Assembly: GCF_014203365.1 (NCBI RefSeq)
Contig: NZ_JACHIS010000001.1
Coordinates: 1,426,001-1,490,000, forward strand
Direction of reading: 5' to 3'
DNA: 64,000 nucleotides
Source: Actinoalloteichus hymeniacidonis
Lineage (GTDB): Bacteria; Actinomycetota; Actinomycetes; Mycobacteriales; Pseudonocardiaceae
Below the pieces are notes generated by a model. It was not told where the DNA came from. It did no database searches and was given only the letters and a program-made list of their open reading frames with translations. The position numbers and the translations under genes are program-made. Shown in pieces: positions 47,538 to 52,726 of this stretch (its first letter is position 1; every line of letters begins with the position of its first letter).

Positions 47538-47896
47538 ACTCGATCTTGGACGTTCTCGGTGTCATCTGCATGGTCACCGGCGCGATCGTCTTCGCCGTGG
47601 GCGCCTTCGGGCTGCTGCGCCTCCCCGATTTCTACTCTCGATTGAGCGGGGTGAGCATCGCAGCCGGCCTCGGTACAGCCTTGCTTCTGCTGGGACTTCT
47701 CCTGCACTTCCCGACGCTGGAGAACACACTGAAACTCGGGCTCGCCCTGCTCATCCAGCTCGCCACCGCAGCCGTGGGTGGCAATGCGATGGCCAGGGCC
47801 GGCTATATCGCCGGAACCCCCGCAAGCCCGAGGACCCGATACGACGACCTGGCGATCGGTAAGGCAAATCCGACGTCGGAGGCCGACGACTCCTGA
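47534..47896 (+). CDS. mrpG: Na+/H+ antiporter subunit G
   Basis: A 120-residue protein with three helices; GAFGLLRLPDFYSRLSGVSIAAGLGTALLLLGL is the MrpG signature, and the C-terminal tail is hydrophilic. The ATG at 47534 overlaps the mrpF stop. Last gene of the operon; the GIDE-domain gene follows 91 bases later. Confidence 0.93.
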   Translation: MNSILDVLGVICMVTGAIVFAVGAFGLLRLPDFYSRLSGVSIAAGLGTALLLLGLLLHFPTLENTLKLGLALLIQLATAAVGGNAMARAGYIAGTPASPRTRYDDLAIGKANPTSEADDS

Positions 47897-47987
47897 GGGG
47901 AATTCACCGCAGAACGGGCCTTCGTCATGGTGGTCGGCGCCAATCGAAATCCAGGTAGGCCGGGCATGGGGAAGGAGGAGATGCGAT

Positions 47988-48737
47988 ATGGCGGACCTTA
48001 CGACGATCCTGCAGCTGGTCACCCTGCTTTGTTGCGCTCCTGCGGTCTATCTGTTCCGCGCAGCCTGGCGGGCGAGGAAGCTCAGTGCGTCACTGGGCAA
48101 TGCCGAGGCTCTGCCGATCGGGTCGTTGTCCGCATACTGCGGCACCGACGTCGAGGTCAACATCAGTGGGAACGCCCTTTTCGGCTCGGCCGCCGAGCTG
48201 ACCGCCCCCTACTCCAAGCGGGCCTGCGTCTGGTACCGGTCCGAGGTGTGGTCCCATCAGCCGAGGGACGGCAGGCAGGGAAACCGGCTGAAGCTGGATC
48301 TGCTGTTCGTCGAACAGTCCCGTTCCTCGTTCGTACTTCGCGATCGCACGGGGGAGATTCTGTGCCGGCCGGGGGACGCGCAGCCGCACAAGCCCAAGGT
48401 GACACATGACTCCTTCGTTCCGGACGACGCCGCCGATTCCGGACAGGCTGAGATCGGGCCCGATCCCAACAATTCGTACCTGCCAGAAGAGGCACTCTTC
48501 TCCCCTGGCCACCGCTACCGAGAATGGTCGATCGCCCCTGGACAGCAGTTGTCCGTCAAGGGTGTCGTCAGATGCGATGCGGGACGCGTCGCCATCGAGG
48601 GACGAGGTGACGACGAACTCTTCTTCTCCCCGCATACCAGGCTCGGGATAAGGGCAACGAACTTTCTTCGACAATGGGTAGGTTTCACTTTACTGCCGCT
48701 GTCTGGAATCACCTTCCTGCTGATTTCATTGGAGTAG
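47988..48737 (+). CDS. GIDE-domain membrane protein (bacterial E3-ligase-like domain)
   Basis: A 249-residue protein with an N-terminal membrane helix (residues 5-28), a long soluble region and a C-terminal helix (about 225-247). The soluble part resembles the GIDE domain known from mitochondrial MULAN/MAPL and from bacterial proteins annotated E3 ubiquitin ligase-like: TAPYSKRACVWYRSEV, SRSSFVLRDRTGEILCRP and YREWSIAPGQQLSVKGVV. No RING domain is present, so ligase activity is not expected. The ATG at 47988 follows AAGGAGGAG. Function in bacteria is unknown; a membrane or envelope role is likely. Confidence 0.78.
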   Translation: MADLTTILQLVTLLCCAPAVYLFRAAWRARKLSASLGNAEALPIGSLSAYCGTDVEVNISGNALFGSAAELTAPYSKRACVWYRSEVWSHQPRDGRQGNRLKLDLLFVEQSRSSFVLRDRTGEILCRPGDAQPHKPKVTHDSFVPDDAADSGQAEIGPDPNNSYLPEEALFSPGHRYREWSIAPGQQLSVKGVVRCDAGRVAIEGRGDDELFFSPHTRLGIRATNFLRQWVGFTLLPLSGITFLLISLE

Positions 48738-48963: not shown

Positions 48964-50238
48964 GTGAAAACTGACAACACCCCCCCGAGGGGCACCCGTG
49001 ACCTGCTTCCCGCCGCCGTCGCCGACCGCGATCATGTGCTGGCGGCCATCACGGAGGTCTACCGGCATCACGGCTACCACCGCATCGAGACCCCGGCGCT
49101 GGAGGACATCGGCAGGCTGACCGGCGGTCAGGGCGGCGAGAACGAGAAACTCATCTACCGGGTGCTGCGTCGTGGCATCACCGAACCGCTCGCCGAGGGC
49201 GTCGGACTCGCCGACCTGGTCGACCTTGGGCTGCGCTTCGACCTCACCGTGCCGTTGACCCGGTTCTACGGGGCGCACCACGCGCAACTTCCGATGCCGT
49301 TCCGCTCCTTCCAATTCGGACCGGTGTGGCGGGCCGAGCGTCCGCAGAAGGGCCGATACCGGCAGTTCAACCAGTGCGACATCGACATCATCGGCGAGGA
49401 GAGCGTGCTCGCCGAGGTGGAGTTGATCGAGGCGACCATCGGCGCGCTCGACGCCGTCGGGCTGACCGGGACCACGGTGCGGATCTCCGATCGGCGGTTG
49501 CTCGCCGCGCTGGCCGAGCACGCGGGGCTGCCCGCCGAGTCCTGGGATGGTCTCTTCATCACCCTCGACAAGTTGGACAAGATCGGCTGGGAGGGCGTCA
49601 CCAAGGAGCTCGTCGAGTCGCGTGGGCTGCCCGCCGAGTCCGTCGCCGTGGTGCGCACCCAGATCGAACGGCTGCAGGCGGTGTCGATCGACACGCTCGT
49701 CGACACCCTGGCCGACGCGCTGCCCACCATGGACGAGCGGGCGCTGACCGACCTGGGCACCACGGTCGCGGCCCTGGCGCCGCTGGCCGAGACCGCGGGC
49801 TCGAGCTGGGAGTTCGATCCGACGCTGGTCCGGGGCATGGGCTACTACACCGGCCAGGTCTTCGAGATCGTGCACCCGGATGCCGGTTCCTCGTTGGCCG
49901 GTGGCGGGCGGTACGACCGGTTGATCGGCCGTACCCTCGGCCGCGATGTGCCCGCCTGTGGCTTCTCCATCGGTTTCGAGCGCATCGTCGATCTGCTGGG
50001 CGGGACGCGGCGCGATCAGCAGGTCGCGGTGCTGCATGAATCCGAGGTGGGCATCGACGAGGTGCTGTCGGTGGCGCGGGCTTTGCGGGCCGAGGGGCGT
50101 TCGGTCGCGCCGGTTCGTCGACGCGGCAAGTTCGGTGCCCAGCTGGACCGGCTCACCGAATGGGGCTTCACCTCGTTCGTGCACCTGAGCGCGCGCCGCG
50201 ACCCGGCCGCCGCCCTGGAGGAACGAACCCTCGGCTGA
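48964..50238 (+). CDS. hisS: Histidyl-tRNA synthetase, atypical subfamily
   Basis: A 424-residue class II synthetase that charges tRNA-His. Motif 1 begins PRGTRDLLP, motif 2 is FQFGPVWRAERPQKGRYRQFNQCDIDIIG, the histidine signature is RGMGYYTGQVFEIV, and motif 3 includes GFSIGFERI. The FDLTVPLTRF and NQCDIDIIG text looks closer to the archaeal/eukaryotic-like branch than to the usual actinobacterial enzyme. The GTG at 48964 follows AAGGA at 8 bases, and CATCTAGGAT upstream may hold the -10. It may be a second, divergent HisRS. The 228 bases upstream contain no gene. Confidence 0.88.
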   Translation: MKTDNTPPRGTRDLLPAAVADRDHVLAAITEVYRHHGYHRIETPALEDIGRLTGGQGGENEKLIYRVLRRGITEPLAEGVGLADLVDLGLRFDLTVPLTRFYGAHHAQLPMPFRSFQFGPVWRAERPQKGRYRQFNQCDIDIIGEESVLAEVELIEATIGALDAVGLTGTTVRISDRRLLAALAEHAGLPAESWDGLFITLDKLDKIGWEGVTKELVESRGLPAESVAVVRTQIERLQAVSIDTLVDTLADALPTMDERALTDLGTTVAALAPLAETAGSSWEFDPTLVRGMGYYTGQVFEIVHPDAGSSLAGGGRYDRLIGRTLGRDVPACGFSIGFERIVDLLGGTRRDQQVAVLHESEVGIDEVLSVARALRAEGRSVAPVRRRGKFGAQLDRLTEWGFTSFVHLSARRDPAAALEERTLG

Positions 50239-50602
50239 CCGGCCGCGCCGGATGATTCGACGTCGGTGCCCCGCCTGCCATCGCGCCGGTGAGGGGCACC
50301 GACGGGTCGATGCGTCGGACATTCACTCATACGCACCCGACGATATGCACGGTGGCGCACCTGCCGAAGTCGCCCCACCGTTCGGAAAGGCCCGGTCGCG
50401 GGTGGTGCAACGGCACGAAGGCGCGCCGGGCGGCCCACTCGGCGTCCATCAGGTGAGAAGAATCAGCCGAGGGAATCTCACGTTCGGTGATGTCGTCGAC
50501 TACTCAGTGGTGGCGAGGTGTTCAGTCGGGCGGTGGTGTCCGGTACTCGGCGTGCGCGGCAGCATCGGGAGACGTCCGTTGGTCGCTGTCCCGGAGGTCA
50601 TC
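50239..50602. other. Intergenic region upstream of the cysteine-rich micro-gene
   Basis: About 360 bases without a supported gene; the frame of the micro-gene is open here but lacks a good start. The part from 50465 to 50520 is AT-richer and probably contains the micro-gene promoter. Confidence 0.4.
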
Positions 50603-50698
50603 ATGAGCGAAGTTCGAACCCCGCCGCCCGCACTCGATGGCTGCGGCTGTTGTTCGGGGTGCACCGGCCCCGGTTGTGGTTGTTGCCAGGGCTGTTGA
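50603..50698 (+). CDS. 31-residue peptide with eight cysteines in two CGCCxGC blocks
   Basis: The predicted product is MSEVRTPPPALDG followed by CGCCSGCTGPGCGCCQGC. Eight of the last 18 residues are Cys, arranged as two near-identical blocks CGCCSGC and CGCCQGC joined by TGPG. The ATG at 50603 has GGAGG with 5-base spacing (50593-50597), and the stop TGA comes right after the last Cys. Such clustering suggests metal binding (metallothionein-like) or a modified peptide precursor; no maturation enzymes are adjacent. Translation is supported by the start signal and the repeat structure, not by homology I can name. Confidence 0.62.
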   Translation: MSEVRTPPPALDGCGCCSGCTGPGCGCCQGC

Positions 50699-50794: not shown

Positions 50795-52366
50795 TCACGG
50801 CGGGCAGACGACCGTCTCGTCAGGCAGTGCGCCGTCGACGAGGTAGTCCTCGGCGATCTCCGTGGCGCAGGTCGAGGCACCGAGCGCTCCATGCCCGGCG
50901 CCCTGCCAGTCCACCAACACACTGCTCGACAGTGCCTCGGCTGCATTGGCGGTGCCCAGACCCGGGGTGACCGGGTCGAGGGCGGTGGCGATCACCGGGA
51001 TCGGCGGCAGCGCGTCCGTGTCCGCGATCTCGGGTTCCTCGGCGGGAATGGGCCATGAACTGCACAGCATCAGCTGTTGCGCCATGATCCCGCCGAAATG
51101 GGCATGCCGACCGCTCCACTCGGTGACCAGCTCGGCCACCCGCGTCGGCGGAATCCGATCGCGTGTGTCGTTGCAACCGTTGATCAGCATGGCCTCGAAG
51201 CGTGCCTGGTCACCGTTGACCGAGCCCAACAGCGGGGCGACCAGTTCCAGGAGGCCGTCGCCCGAGCCGTCCCCGGCCTGAGCGATCCGGTCCGCCAATC
51301 CGGGCCAGGATGCCCGGTCACCGAGCCCGAGCAGGATGGCATTGATCGCCAATCCCTCGGTGAGCGGCGGCCCGTCGGTGATCAACGGCTGTTCGGCAAG
51401 ACGGTCGAGTAGCTCGCGCAATGCCGCCGACGGGTCCGTTCCGAGCGGACAGTCCGGACGATTCGCGCACTCGGTCAGGAAGGCGTCCAACACCGCCTCT
51501 GCGGAGCGGGCCCGTTCCTCGGCGAGTCCGATCGCGTCGAGATTCGGATCCGGCGCGCCATCGAGGATCAGCCTGCCGACCGTCTCGGGAAACCGCTGGG
51601 CGTAGTTGGCCAACACCTGGGAGCCCTCGCCCCGACCGATGGCATGCAGCCGATCCAGGTCGAGTTCGGCCCGGAGCTGTTCGAGATCCCCAGCCGAACG
51701 GATTCCATCGAATGCCCTGGTCAGCTCGTCCAGGATGAGCGTGCATTCCTTCGCGGCGGTCTCGGTGGCGTTCTGCAGGCCGGCCAGCTCCTCGGGGGTG
51801 GCGGCCCGAGGGCTGTAGGACAGCGCGGTGGTGCGGTCGTCGGGCGGTACGCAGCTGGTGTCGAAGGAGCTTCCGGTGCCTCTTCGGTCCATTCCGATGA
51901 TCGAGAAGGTCGACAACAGTTCGGGTGACAGTGTCTCGGCCAATCGCGCGGCGAACAGGGTGCCCGGCTCACCGGCCACGTCGTTGACCACCACCAGCGG
52001 GGTCGGCCCGTCACCGACCCGCATCAGATTCACCGGAGTCGAACCCATCCCGGGTAGCCCGGGGGCCTCCAGCGGCGCGACGAGTTGAGCGCAGTCATAG
52101 GTGGTGTCGGTAGGTCCGGTTCCGCCCATCCGCGCCCTGATCACCTCGGTGCAGTCCGCCCACTGGAGTCGGCTGCTCTGGGGAACCTGCAGATCGGGCA
52201 CCGGCACCTCGACCTCGACGTCGGTATCGAAGCTCTCCTGCTCGGACTCGTCGAGCAACAGCGGCACGGGCGGCCGTTCGGATCCGCCGACCGTGCAGGA
52301 AGCCGAGGTGAGAAGCACGGCCATCGCGGTGCACACCACGGTGACCCACCGATTCGTTCGCGGCAC
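50795..52366 (-). CDS. Lipoprotein alpha/beta-hydrolase homologue lacking the nucleophile serine
   Basis: A 523-residue exported homologue of the peptidase at 29277 (TAP-like family). The GTG at 52366 has AAGGAGG with 6-base spacing and gives a signal peptide ending at TSASC; earlier in-frame starts lack that signal. GMDRRGTGSS, ILDGAPDPN, ATALDPVTPG (Asp) and GAGHGA (His) are conserved, but the nucleophile elbow reads GRGEG: Gly246 (codon 51629-51631) replaces Ser. One transition (AGC to GGC) would explain it. It is thus probably a non-catalytic or mechanistically altered, surface-anchored protein. It lies downstream of ligC on the same strand. Confidence 0.82.
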   Translation of the reverse strand: MPRTNRWVTVVCTAMAVLLTSASCTVGGSERPPVPLLLDESEQESFDTDVEVEVPVPDLQVPQSSRLQWADCTEVIRARMGGTGPTDTTYDCAQLVAPLEAPGLPGMGSTPVNLMRVGDGPTPLVVVNDVAGEPGTLFAARLAETLSPELLSTFSIIGMDRRGTGSSFDTSCVPPDDRTTALSYSPRAATPEELAGLQNATETAAKECTLILDELTRAFDGIRSAGDLEQLRAELDLDRLHAIGRGEGSQVLANYAQRFPETVGRLILDGAPDPNLDAIGLAEERARSAEAVLDAFLTECANRPDCPLGTDPSAALRELLDRLAEQPLITDGPPLTEGLAINAILLGLGDRASWPGLADRIAQAGDGSGDGLLELVAPLLGSVNGDQARFEAMLINGCNDTRDRIPPTRVAELVTEWSGRHAHFGGIMAQQLMLCSSWPIPAEEPEIADTDALPPIPVIATALDPVTPGLGTANAAEALSSSVLVDWQGAGHGALGASTCATEIAEDYLVDGALPDETVVCPP

Positions 52367-52726
52367 GCGTTGCCTCCTTGCACTCTCGGATGTCGCTGTC
52401 GTATCGGTGTGACCGGCGGCGGGCGTCTCGACGGGGCTTGCGTCGGCCATCGTGGACGAGGCGGGCACACCCGCTCCGACGGCCGCTTTCGCGCCCCAGG
52501 CTACGCAGTCGGCGCTGTCGGGTTTCCCGGTGATCCAGCTCGATCGCCGTCACGGTCGGCCGTGCGCGTTCGATCCGACGAGGTCATGCCGCGTTCGACC
52601 GAGCGGCTACCCGGCGGACGTGTTCCCGACGCGGATCACCCGCCGTGCGCAGCTTGCCCGCTGCGAGGTGAGACGTGCATACGGTGCGCCGCGCTCTAGG
52701 TCTAGCGCGCCCGCAGACCGATGCGG
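52367..52726. other. Intergenic region between the DNA ligase and hydrolase-homologue genes
   Basis: 360 bases. The last part next to 52366 holds the ribosome-binding site of the hydrolase homologue and presumably its promoter; an in-frame upstream extension exists but is not supported. No other gene seen. Confidence 0.4.

Follow-up and report, generated by a model that had tools for sequence, protein, structure and literature searches.

We report that a 31-residue, Cys-rich microprotein gene of the Pseudonocardiaceae is, judging by comparison with its relatives, real, conserved and easily missed. The gene is conserved, is under selection at the protein level, stands autonomously in the genome and has a conserved promoter of its own. 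We read its product as a miniature metal-thiolate protein that would act like a metallothionein, a reading to which we give a probability of roughly 0.6. The copy described here lies in a 64-kb stretch of Actinoalloteichus hymeniacidonis DNA that was analyzed as a whole and is called the window below.

Occurrence of the microprotein gene

The ORF translates to MSEVRTPPPALDGCGCCSGCTGPGCGCCQGC followed by a stop, with eight Cys that all fall within the last 18 residues and form two CGCCxGC units with TGPG as the joint (Table 1). A sequence-only reading had picked out a 31-residue ORF with a well-placed ribosome-binding site and a duplicated CGCCxGC motif, and the sequence at 50603-50698 agrees. 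The spacing CxCCx2Cx4CxCCx2C has a single occurrence in the six frames of the window and was absent from all 20 first-order Markov resamples, and a search of the window genome for a second copy gave a next best match with an E value of only 0.52. Elsewhere in the window, a plus-strand ORF (47778-48737) matches GIDE (E3 ubiquitin ligase-like, PF12483) barely over the curated cut-off, an odd-sounding assignment for a bacterium.

Table 1. Features of the microprotein locus and its two neighbors, in window coordinates
Feature	Position	Strand	Basis and remarks
Histidyl-tRNA synthetase, upstream neighbor (context)	48964..50238	+	PF13393, TIGR00442
Conserved upstream element, window copy TTCAGTCGGGCGGTGGTGTC	50521..50540	+	De novo motif, score 19.8
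Putative -10 hexamer CAGCAT	50560..50565	+	22 nt past the element's GTGGT; position read from the sequence
Ribosome-binding site GGAGGT	50593..50598	+	Sequence; ATG 4 nt downstream
Cys-rich microprotein gene	50603..50698	+	ATG to TGA, 31 aa; conservation, pN/pS
18-residue module CGCCSGC-TGPG-CGCCQGC, 8 Cys	50642..50695	+	Conserved in alignment of 69 sequences
TAP-like alpha/beta hydrolase, convergent neighbor (context, outside the system)	50795..52468	-	Pfam PF08386, PF00561

Copies in two other genomes of the same genus are also 31 aa long, are 81% and 84% identical and use the same ATG behind GGAGG. A first profile matched 177 of 249 genomes of the family, representing 43 of 46 genera (E≤0.01), mostly with one match per genome among the genomes listed; with variants included, a second profile matched 189 of 249 Pseudonocardiaceae genomes under the same threshold, again in 43 of 46 genera. 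The microprotein is therefore not universal, 60 of the 249 genomes being without a copy at this threshold. The sequence-only reading had staked its case on the Cys pattern being conserved in relatives, and the matches of both profiles bear it out. When 80 listed matches to a degenerate DNA pattern were translated, at least 41 proved to be microproteins, one was an archaeal peroxiredoxin and 38 were low-complexity or unrelated frames. The genera among the matches listed include Lentzea, Amycolatopsis, Saccharothrix, Prauserella, Actinopolyspora, Saccharopolyspora, Actinoalloteichus and others, and two of these microproteins are from MAGs whose titles give no more than Actinomycetes or Actinobacteria. 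Saccharopolyspora spinosa is one species with a copy.

Sequence searches of class, phylum and order samples gave no convincing copy outside the Pseudonocardiaceae. Only 2 of 394 genomes matched in the class sample, both inside the family; 2 of 296 matched in the phylum sample, one of them the window genome and the other a weak partial match (E 0.006). The order sample gave 74 matching genomes out of 397, with 66 inside the family and eight outside, all of them weak (E 0.0018-0.0099), and a comparable short ORF was absent in five of these eight whose sequence was read. No match to the microprotein was found by tblastn in plasmid and phage records, no relative was found by sequence among PDB chains, and the locus has no Rfam match. 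None of 30 members (0/30) matched any family in Pfam or NCBIfam, metallothionein families included, at E≤10 within HMMER's filters. The titles and abstracts of openly licensed papers on metallothioneins and small Cys-rich proteins do not describe the family, which is weak evidence of novelty. A metallothionein has reportedly been found in the copper-resistant Amycolatopsis tucumanensis. This species carries a copy of the microprotein (L127), and the passages available from a paper on it draw no link between the metallothionein report and the microprotein.

Module, variants and selection

Family members are 20-36 residues long and share a constant C-terminal module, C-x-CC-xx-C-[TS]G-x-x-CGCC-xx-C, behind an N-terminal extension that varies in length and sequence and is missing in many members; MGGCSCCSSCTGPGCGCCGSC is an example of a 21-residue form. 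In an alignment of 69 sequences, whose rows were chosen to have the Cys but not the Gly, positions C14, C16, C17, C20, G22, C25, G26, C27, C28 and C31 are invariant, and beyond Cys and Gly there is no invariant residue. The linker has a conserved Gly, with Thr/Ser and Pro frequent. A set of 94 loci was picked by the Cys pattern plus Thr/Ser, and Cys invariance there is by construction. Across 88 distinct nucleotide cores, mean pS was 0.69 and mean pN 0.18, giving a pN/pS of 0.26. At Gly22 and Gly26, which lie outside the selection pattern, the residue never changes and the third codon position varies by about 1.8 bits. The low pN/pS, the two invariant Gly with their varying third positions and the lack of an Rfam match together indicate selection on the protein and not on the RNA.

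The Cys array itself tolerates rearrangement. Three other members relocate Cys within the first half and keep a total of eight (CGCGCASC..., CGCGCSNC... and CCGCSNC...), and a divergent member (L048) has its Cys shifted within the second half. Within one genus, a His-bearing query matched 51 of 60 genomes and left 9 of 60 without a match; in all 51 matches, retrieved by a query that finds what resembles it, the first Cys is replaced by His and the remaining seven Cys are kept. Nineteen of these His-type copies are the 20-residue MHGCCSKCTGQGCGCCGNCN with an A/G-rich ribosome-binding site upstream, and 11 of the 19 lack any alternative in-frame ATG or GTG. A further genome of the same genus, outside the 60-genome sample (G237), carries a 22-residue, Cys-type copy, MGGCNCCSSCTGASCGCCGSCG, showing that the genus is not uniformly of the His type. 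The effects on the odds of the 51/51 His copies and of this one Cys-type copy roughly cancel.

AlphaFold2, run with the 69 natural sequences and no metal, did not give a confident fold (mean pLDDT 62.9, pTM 0.17). Much of the same pattern would also be accounted for by a small regulator or chaperone subunit that, instead of buffering metal, binds a partner (protein or nucleic acid) through one or two Zn(Cys)4-type knuckles: the two CxCCxxC units suit it, as do the linker composition and the single match in most genomes listed. We nevertheless hold such a role to be quite unlikely, given that invariance is limited to Cys and Gly, that the N-terminal extension is dispensable and that 20-22 residues at 35-38% Cys leave little surface for binding.

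Promoter and genomic surroundings

A de novo search of 69 non-redundant upstream regions gave an element with the family consensus tTC.CtCG.gcgGCGGTgtc. It ends 62 nt ahead of the ATG in the window and a median of 64 nt ahead of the start codon across loci. Scores of at least 10 were obtained at 81 of 94 loci, compared with 7 of 470 shuffled regions; the shuffles preserved base composition only, and the loci scored were also those used to train the model; the -10 spacing played no part in the training. In 73 of the 81 element-bearing loci, a YANNNT hexamer follows after 22 or 23 nt; no other spacing is shared by more than two loci, and no single conserved -35 hexamer was found among these loci. 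All 94 chosen starts (94/94) are preceded by an SD-like stretch of at least four bases, on which the choice of start partly depended. The element is present at the commonest locus and at unrelated loci alike, so that the gene apparently moves as a unit with its promoter.

Searching 60 genomes with promoter patterns did not uncover a regulon. The element without the -10 gave 31 pattern matches, against 8 for a reversed control; among the 30 of these that had a locus, six precede the microprotein, and a correctly spaced -10-like site accompanies all six and none of the other 24. The element combined with the -10 gave 14 matches, against 11 for the reversed control, and 10 of the 14 precede the microprotein; the remaining four are within chance, the control alone giving 11. 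These patterns are strict and missed many true copies, the window copy among them, and a small regulon with weaker sites may exist. The promoter is non-canonical, lacks a recognizable -35 and is found mostly ahead of the microprotein gene. From its architecture, we read it as a putative activator-type site for a regulator with very few targets. Compared by eye, the element matches none of the known metal-regulator boxes. Inspection by eye pointed to a CueR-like dyad in some copies, which we set aside because it is not conserved. At three loci (L052, L099 and L141), GGTAAGGCTTACC or GGTTAGGCCTACC palindromes lie between the element and the -10; they are not conserved across the family and, judged by eye, resemble the box of the DtxR/IdeR iron regulators.

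We infer that the ORF is translated: conservation, codon-level purifying selection, the ribosome-binding site and the conserved promoter strongly support a real translated product, as the sequence-only reading had proposed. To a chance ORF or artefact we attach virtually no weight. The ORF is very short, has no family model and sits within a longer open frame, as such an artefact might; its conservation across the family (189 of 249 genomes, 43 of 46 genera) refutes this, purifying selection speaks against it as well, and the promoter-only pattern recovers the gene independently, 10 of its 14 matches lying ahead of the microprotein.

We then considered the surroundings of 30 loci, 7 of an original 37 having been dropped for lack of the pattern, including one His variant (L045). 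At 23 of the 30, the gene that comes next downstream lies on the other strand, within 300 bp at 18 of these, the window included. A same-strand ORF comes next at the other seven, within 300 bp at five; gene calls here were crude, and some same-strand "genes" are probably antisense shadows. A convergent TAP-like hydrolase marks the commonest locus, its cluster accompanying 16 of 30 copies; beyond the hydrolase, a cluster identified by eye as ATP-dependent DNA ligase is present at 13 of 30 loci. Other copies adjoin methionine synthase-like, cysteine dioxygenase, chaperonin-10, glycosyltransferase and further genes. No metal genes were seen among the neighbors scanned. Opposite-strand next genes at most loci and unrelated neighbors make the gene autonomous, and its neighborhood yields no function. 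Two paralogous second copies from two genera (L038 and L051) lie less than 8 kb from sulfur-related genes (cysteine desulfurase-like and MnmA-like, both by eye, and cobalamin-independent methionine synthase-like), which may be coincidence, and one copy (L041) is convergent with a cysteine dioxygenase gene (PF05995).

This solitary setting, with the next gene usually on the opposite strand, argues against both a peptide precursor and a leader peptide. That the gene makes a RiPP or a secreted Cys-rich precursor is very unlikely. The product is small and Cys-rich, and its variable N-terminal part could pass as a leader; members of 20-22 aa, however, are leaderless, 11 of 19 copies of the 20-aa form offer no other in-frame start, and no signal peptide is visible by eye. 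Pfam searches of 20 neighbors at 12 loci found no lanthionine, YcaO, radical-SAM or peptide-export protein, and a known RiPP enzyme in none of the 20 (5 of which had no Pfam match). One copy has a LysE-type amino-acid translocator at a distance of 2.3 kb. Operon or RiPP logic drawn from neighbors was rejected, the copies standing beside unrelated genes with no common partner. The "precursor peptide" option of the sequence-only reading is accordingly not supported, on account of these leaderless members and the lack of a modifying enzyme among the scanned neighbors.

Poly-Cys short ORFs in mycobacteria were reportedly described by Canestrari et al. in 2020. According to the available passages of one paper, mycobacterial poly-Cys leader peptides regulate a downstream gene (PMC9094748), and our ORF might likewise be a Cys-responsive leader peptide, or attenuator, whose translation matters and whose product does not. 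In keeping with this, one copy (L038) is followed after 81 bp by a same-strand gene resembling cobalamin-independent methionine synthase, and a same-strand ORF comes next at 7 of 30 loci, within 300 bp at five. We consider an attenuator extremely unlikely all the same: there is generally no co-directional downstream operon, an opposite-strand gene coming next at 23 of 30 loci (18 within 300 bp); the ORF appears not to be leaderless, with SD-like sites at 94 of 94 chosen starts and the -10-like site tens of nt upstream; two non-Cys residues, both Gly, are conserved; and Rfam is without a match.

A putative metal-thiolate protein and known systems

The sequence-only reading had suggested a small metallothionein buffering copper or zinc, and this is still the best functional reading, with metal binding putative. 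The family has the low mass and very high content of Cys in CxC, CC and CxxC arrangements that characterize metallothioneins (8 Cys in 18 residues; 20-36 aa), and the metallothionein reading gains support from the Cys-to-His replacement and from the autonomy of the gene. We propose that a free-standing cytosolic microprotein would fold only around metal. Each CxCCxxC half-site would give four thiolates, the Gly-containing TGPG turn would bring the two halves together and the eight thiolates would enclose a small cluster of soft metal ions, be it Cu(I), Zn(II) or a mimic, the microprotein thereby acting as an inducible buffer or sink in the manner of a metallothionein. Metal ligation is suggested by the Cys density, the tolerated rearrangement of Cys, the Cys-to-His exchange and the lack of a predicted fold, inducibility by a promoter with an upstream element in place of a recognizable -35, and a cytosolic location by visual inspection, which showed no signal peptide. 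Bacterial MTs commonly contain His according to passages of one paper (PMC10612145), and on this ground the His form in one genus tips the choice of metal weakly toward Zn(II).

The strongest of the alternatives is thiol-redox chemistry, in which the eight Cys would make and break disulfides so as to buffer stress of oxidative, nitrosative or electrophilic origin, or the microprotein would be a substrate for a mycothiol-based system. It would account for much of the same pattern: the Cys density is high, MsrB-like genes lie no more than several kb away at 8 of 30 loci (cluster identity by eye), and a closely similar Cys pattern, CNCCDECTGPGCGCCEDC, occurs in an archaeal peroxidase. We consider it unlikely, however, since His-type copies are left with seven Cys, and replacement of a Cys by another metal ligand fits coordination better than disulfide or thioether chemistry; a confident fold is not predicted either. 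The archaeal protein, from Thermoplasmata archaeon SIG8 (L171/L208/L240, contig SUTA01000013.1), is a peroxiredoxin with CNCCDECTGPGCGCCEDC as an N-terminal extension, which shares the Cys spacing and the TGPGCGCC core of the microprotein but is fused to the peroxiredoxin. We followed this peroxiredoxin in 61 genomes, 32 with a match, and related genomes carry other Cys-rich or Cys-poor tails in place of the extension. The fusion was rejected as a relative because its Cys-rich tail differs between genomes, and this free variation makes it most likely, on sequence grounds, that the likeness is convergent. Even on its own, such a Cys-rich tail is an unusual feature for a peroxiredoxin.

The metal-thiolate reading can be set beside several described metallothioneins, each known to us here from passages of the cited papers. 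The Cu-MTs of Neurospora crassa and Agaricus bisporus, with 26 aa and 7 Cys, were the shortest MTs reported when classes were proposed (PMC4755600). They resemble the microprotein in being very short and Cys-dense, but their pattern, CXC-X5-CXC-X3-CXC-X2-C (PMC4755600), differs from its CxCCxxC-x4-CxCCxxC. The microprotein is bacterial and goes down to 20-21 aa with 7-8 Cys; its 20-22-residue members are shorter than these 26-residue fungal proteins once called the shortest. SmtA-type bacterial MTs are likewise small and Cys-rich, and bacterial MTs also use His (PMC7558416, PMC10612145), as do the His-type copies. SmtA-type proteins have a zinc-finger-like fold (PMC7558416), whereas none of the 30 microprotein members matches any curated family model at E≤10. 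MymT, a 4.9-kDa mycobacterial copper metallothionein with a predicted capacity of up to six Cu(I), also comes from a non-annotated ORF (PMC7558416). Going by its description only, MymT shares with the microprotein an actinobacterial origin, small size, Cys richness and discovery outside annotation, and is larger. By the sequence comparisons made, the microprotein falls outside all metallothionein families tested, that is, the Pfam and NCBIfam models and the fungal pattern.

A broader proposal, which we hold with less than even confidence, is that these microproteins form a new, family-wide class of genetically encoded metal-cluster peptides for which 20-22 residues are enough, carried as an autonomous promoter-gene cassette under a dedicated regulator, the site of which, together with its -10, would precede little else in the genome. 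If confirmed, these would be among the smallest known metal-buffering proteins, absent from Pfam and NCBIfam, and would offer a natural 20-residue scaffold for metal-thiolate clusters together with a natural Cys-to-His series for probing metal selectivity. The Pseudonocardiaceae are rich in antibiotic producers, and the clean promoter would, on the same condition, provide a route to a stress or metal sensor. A whole conserved family can slip past family libraries when its protein is this short.
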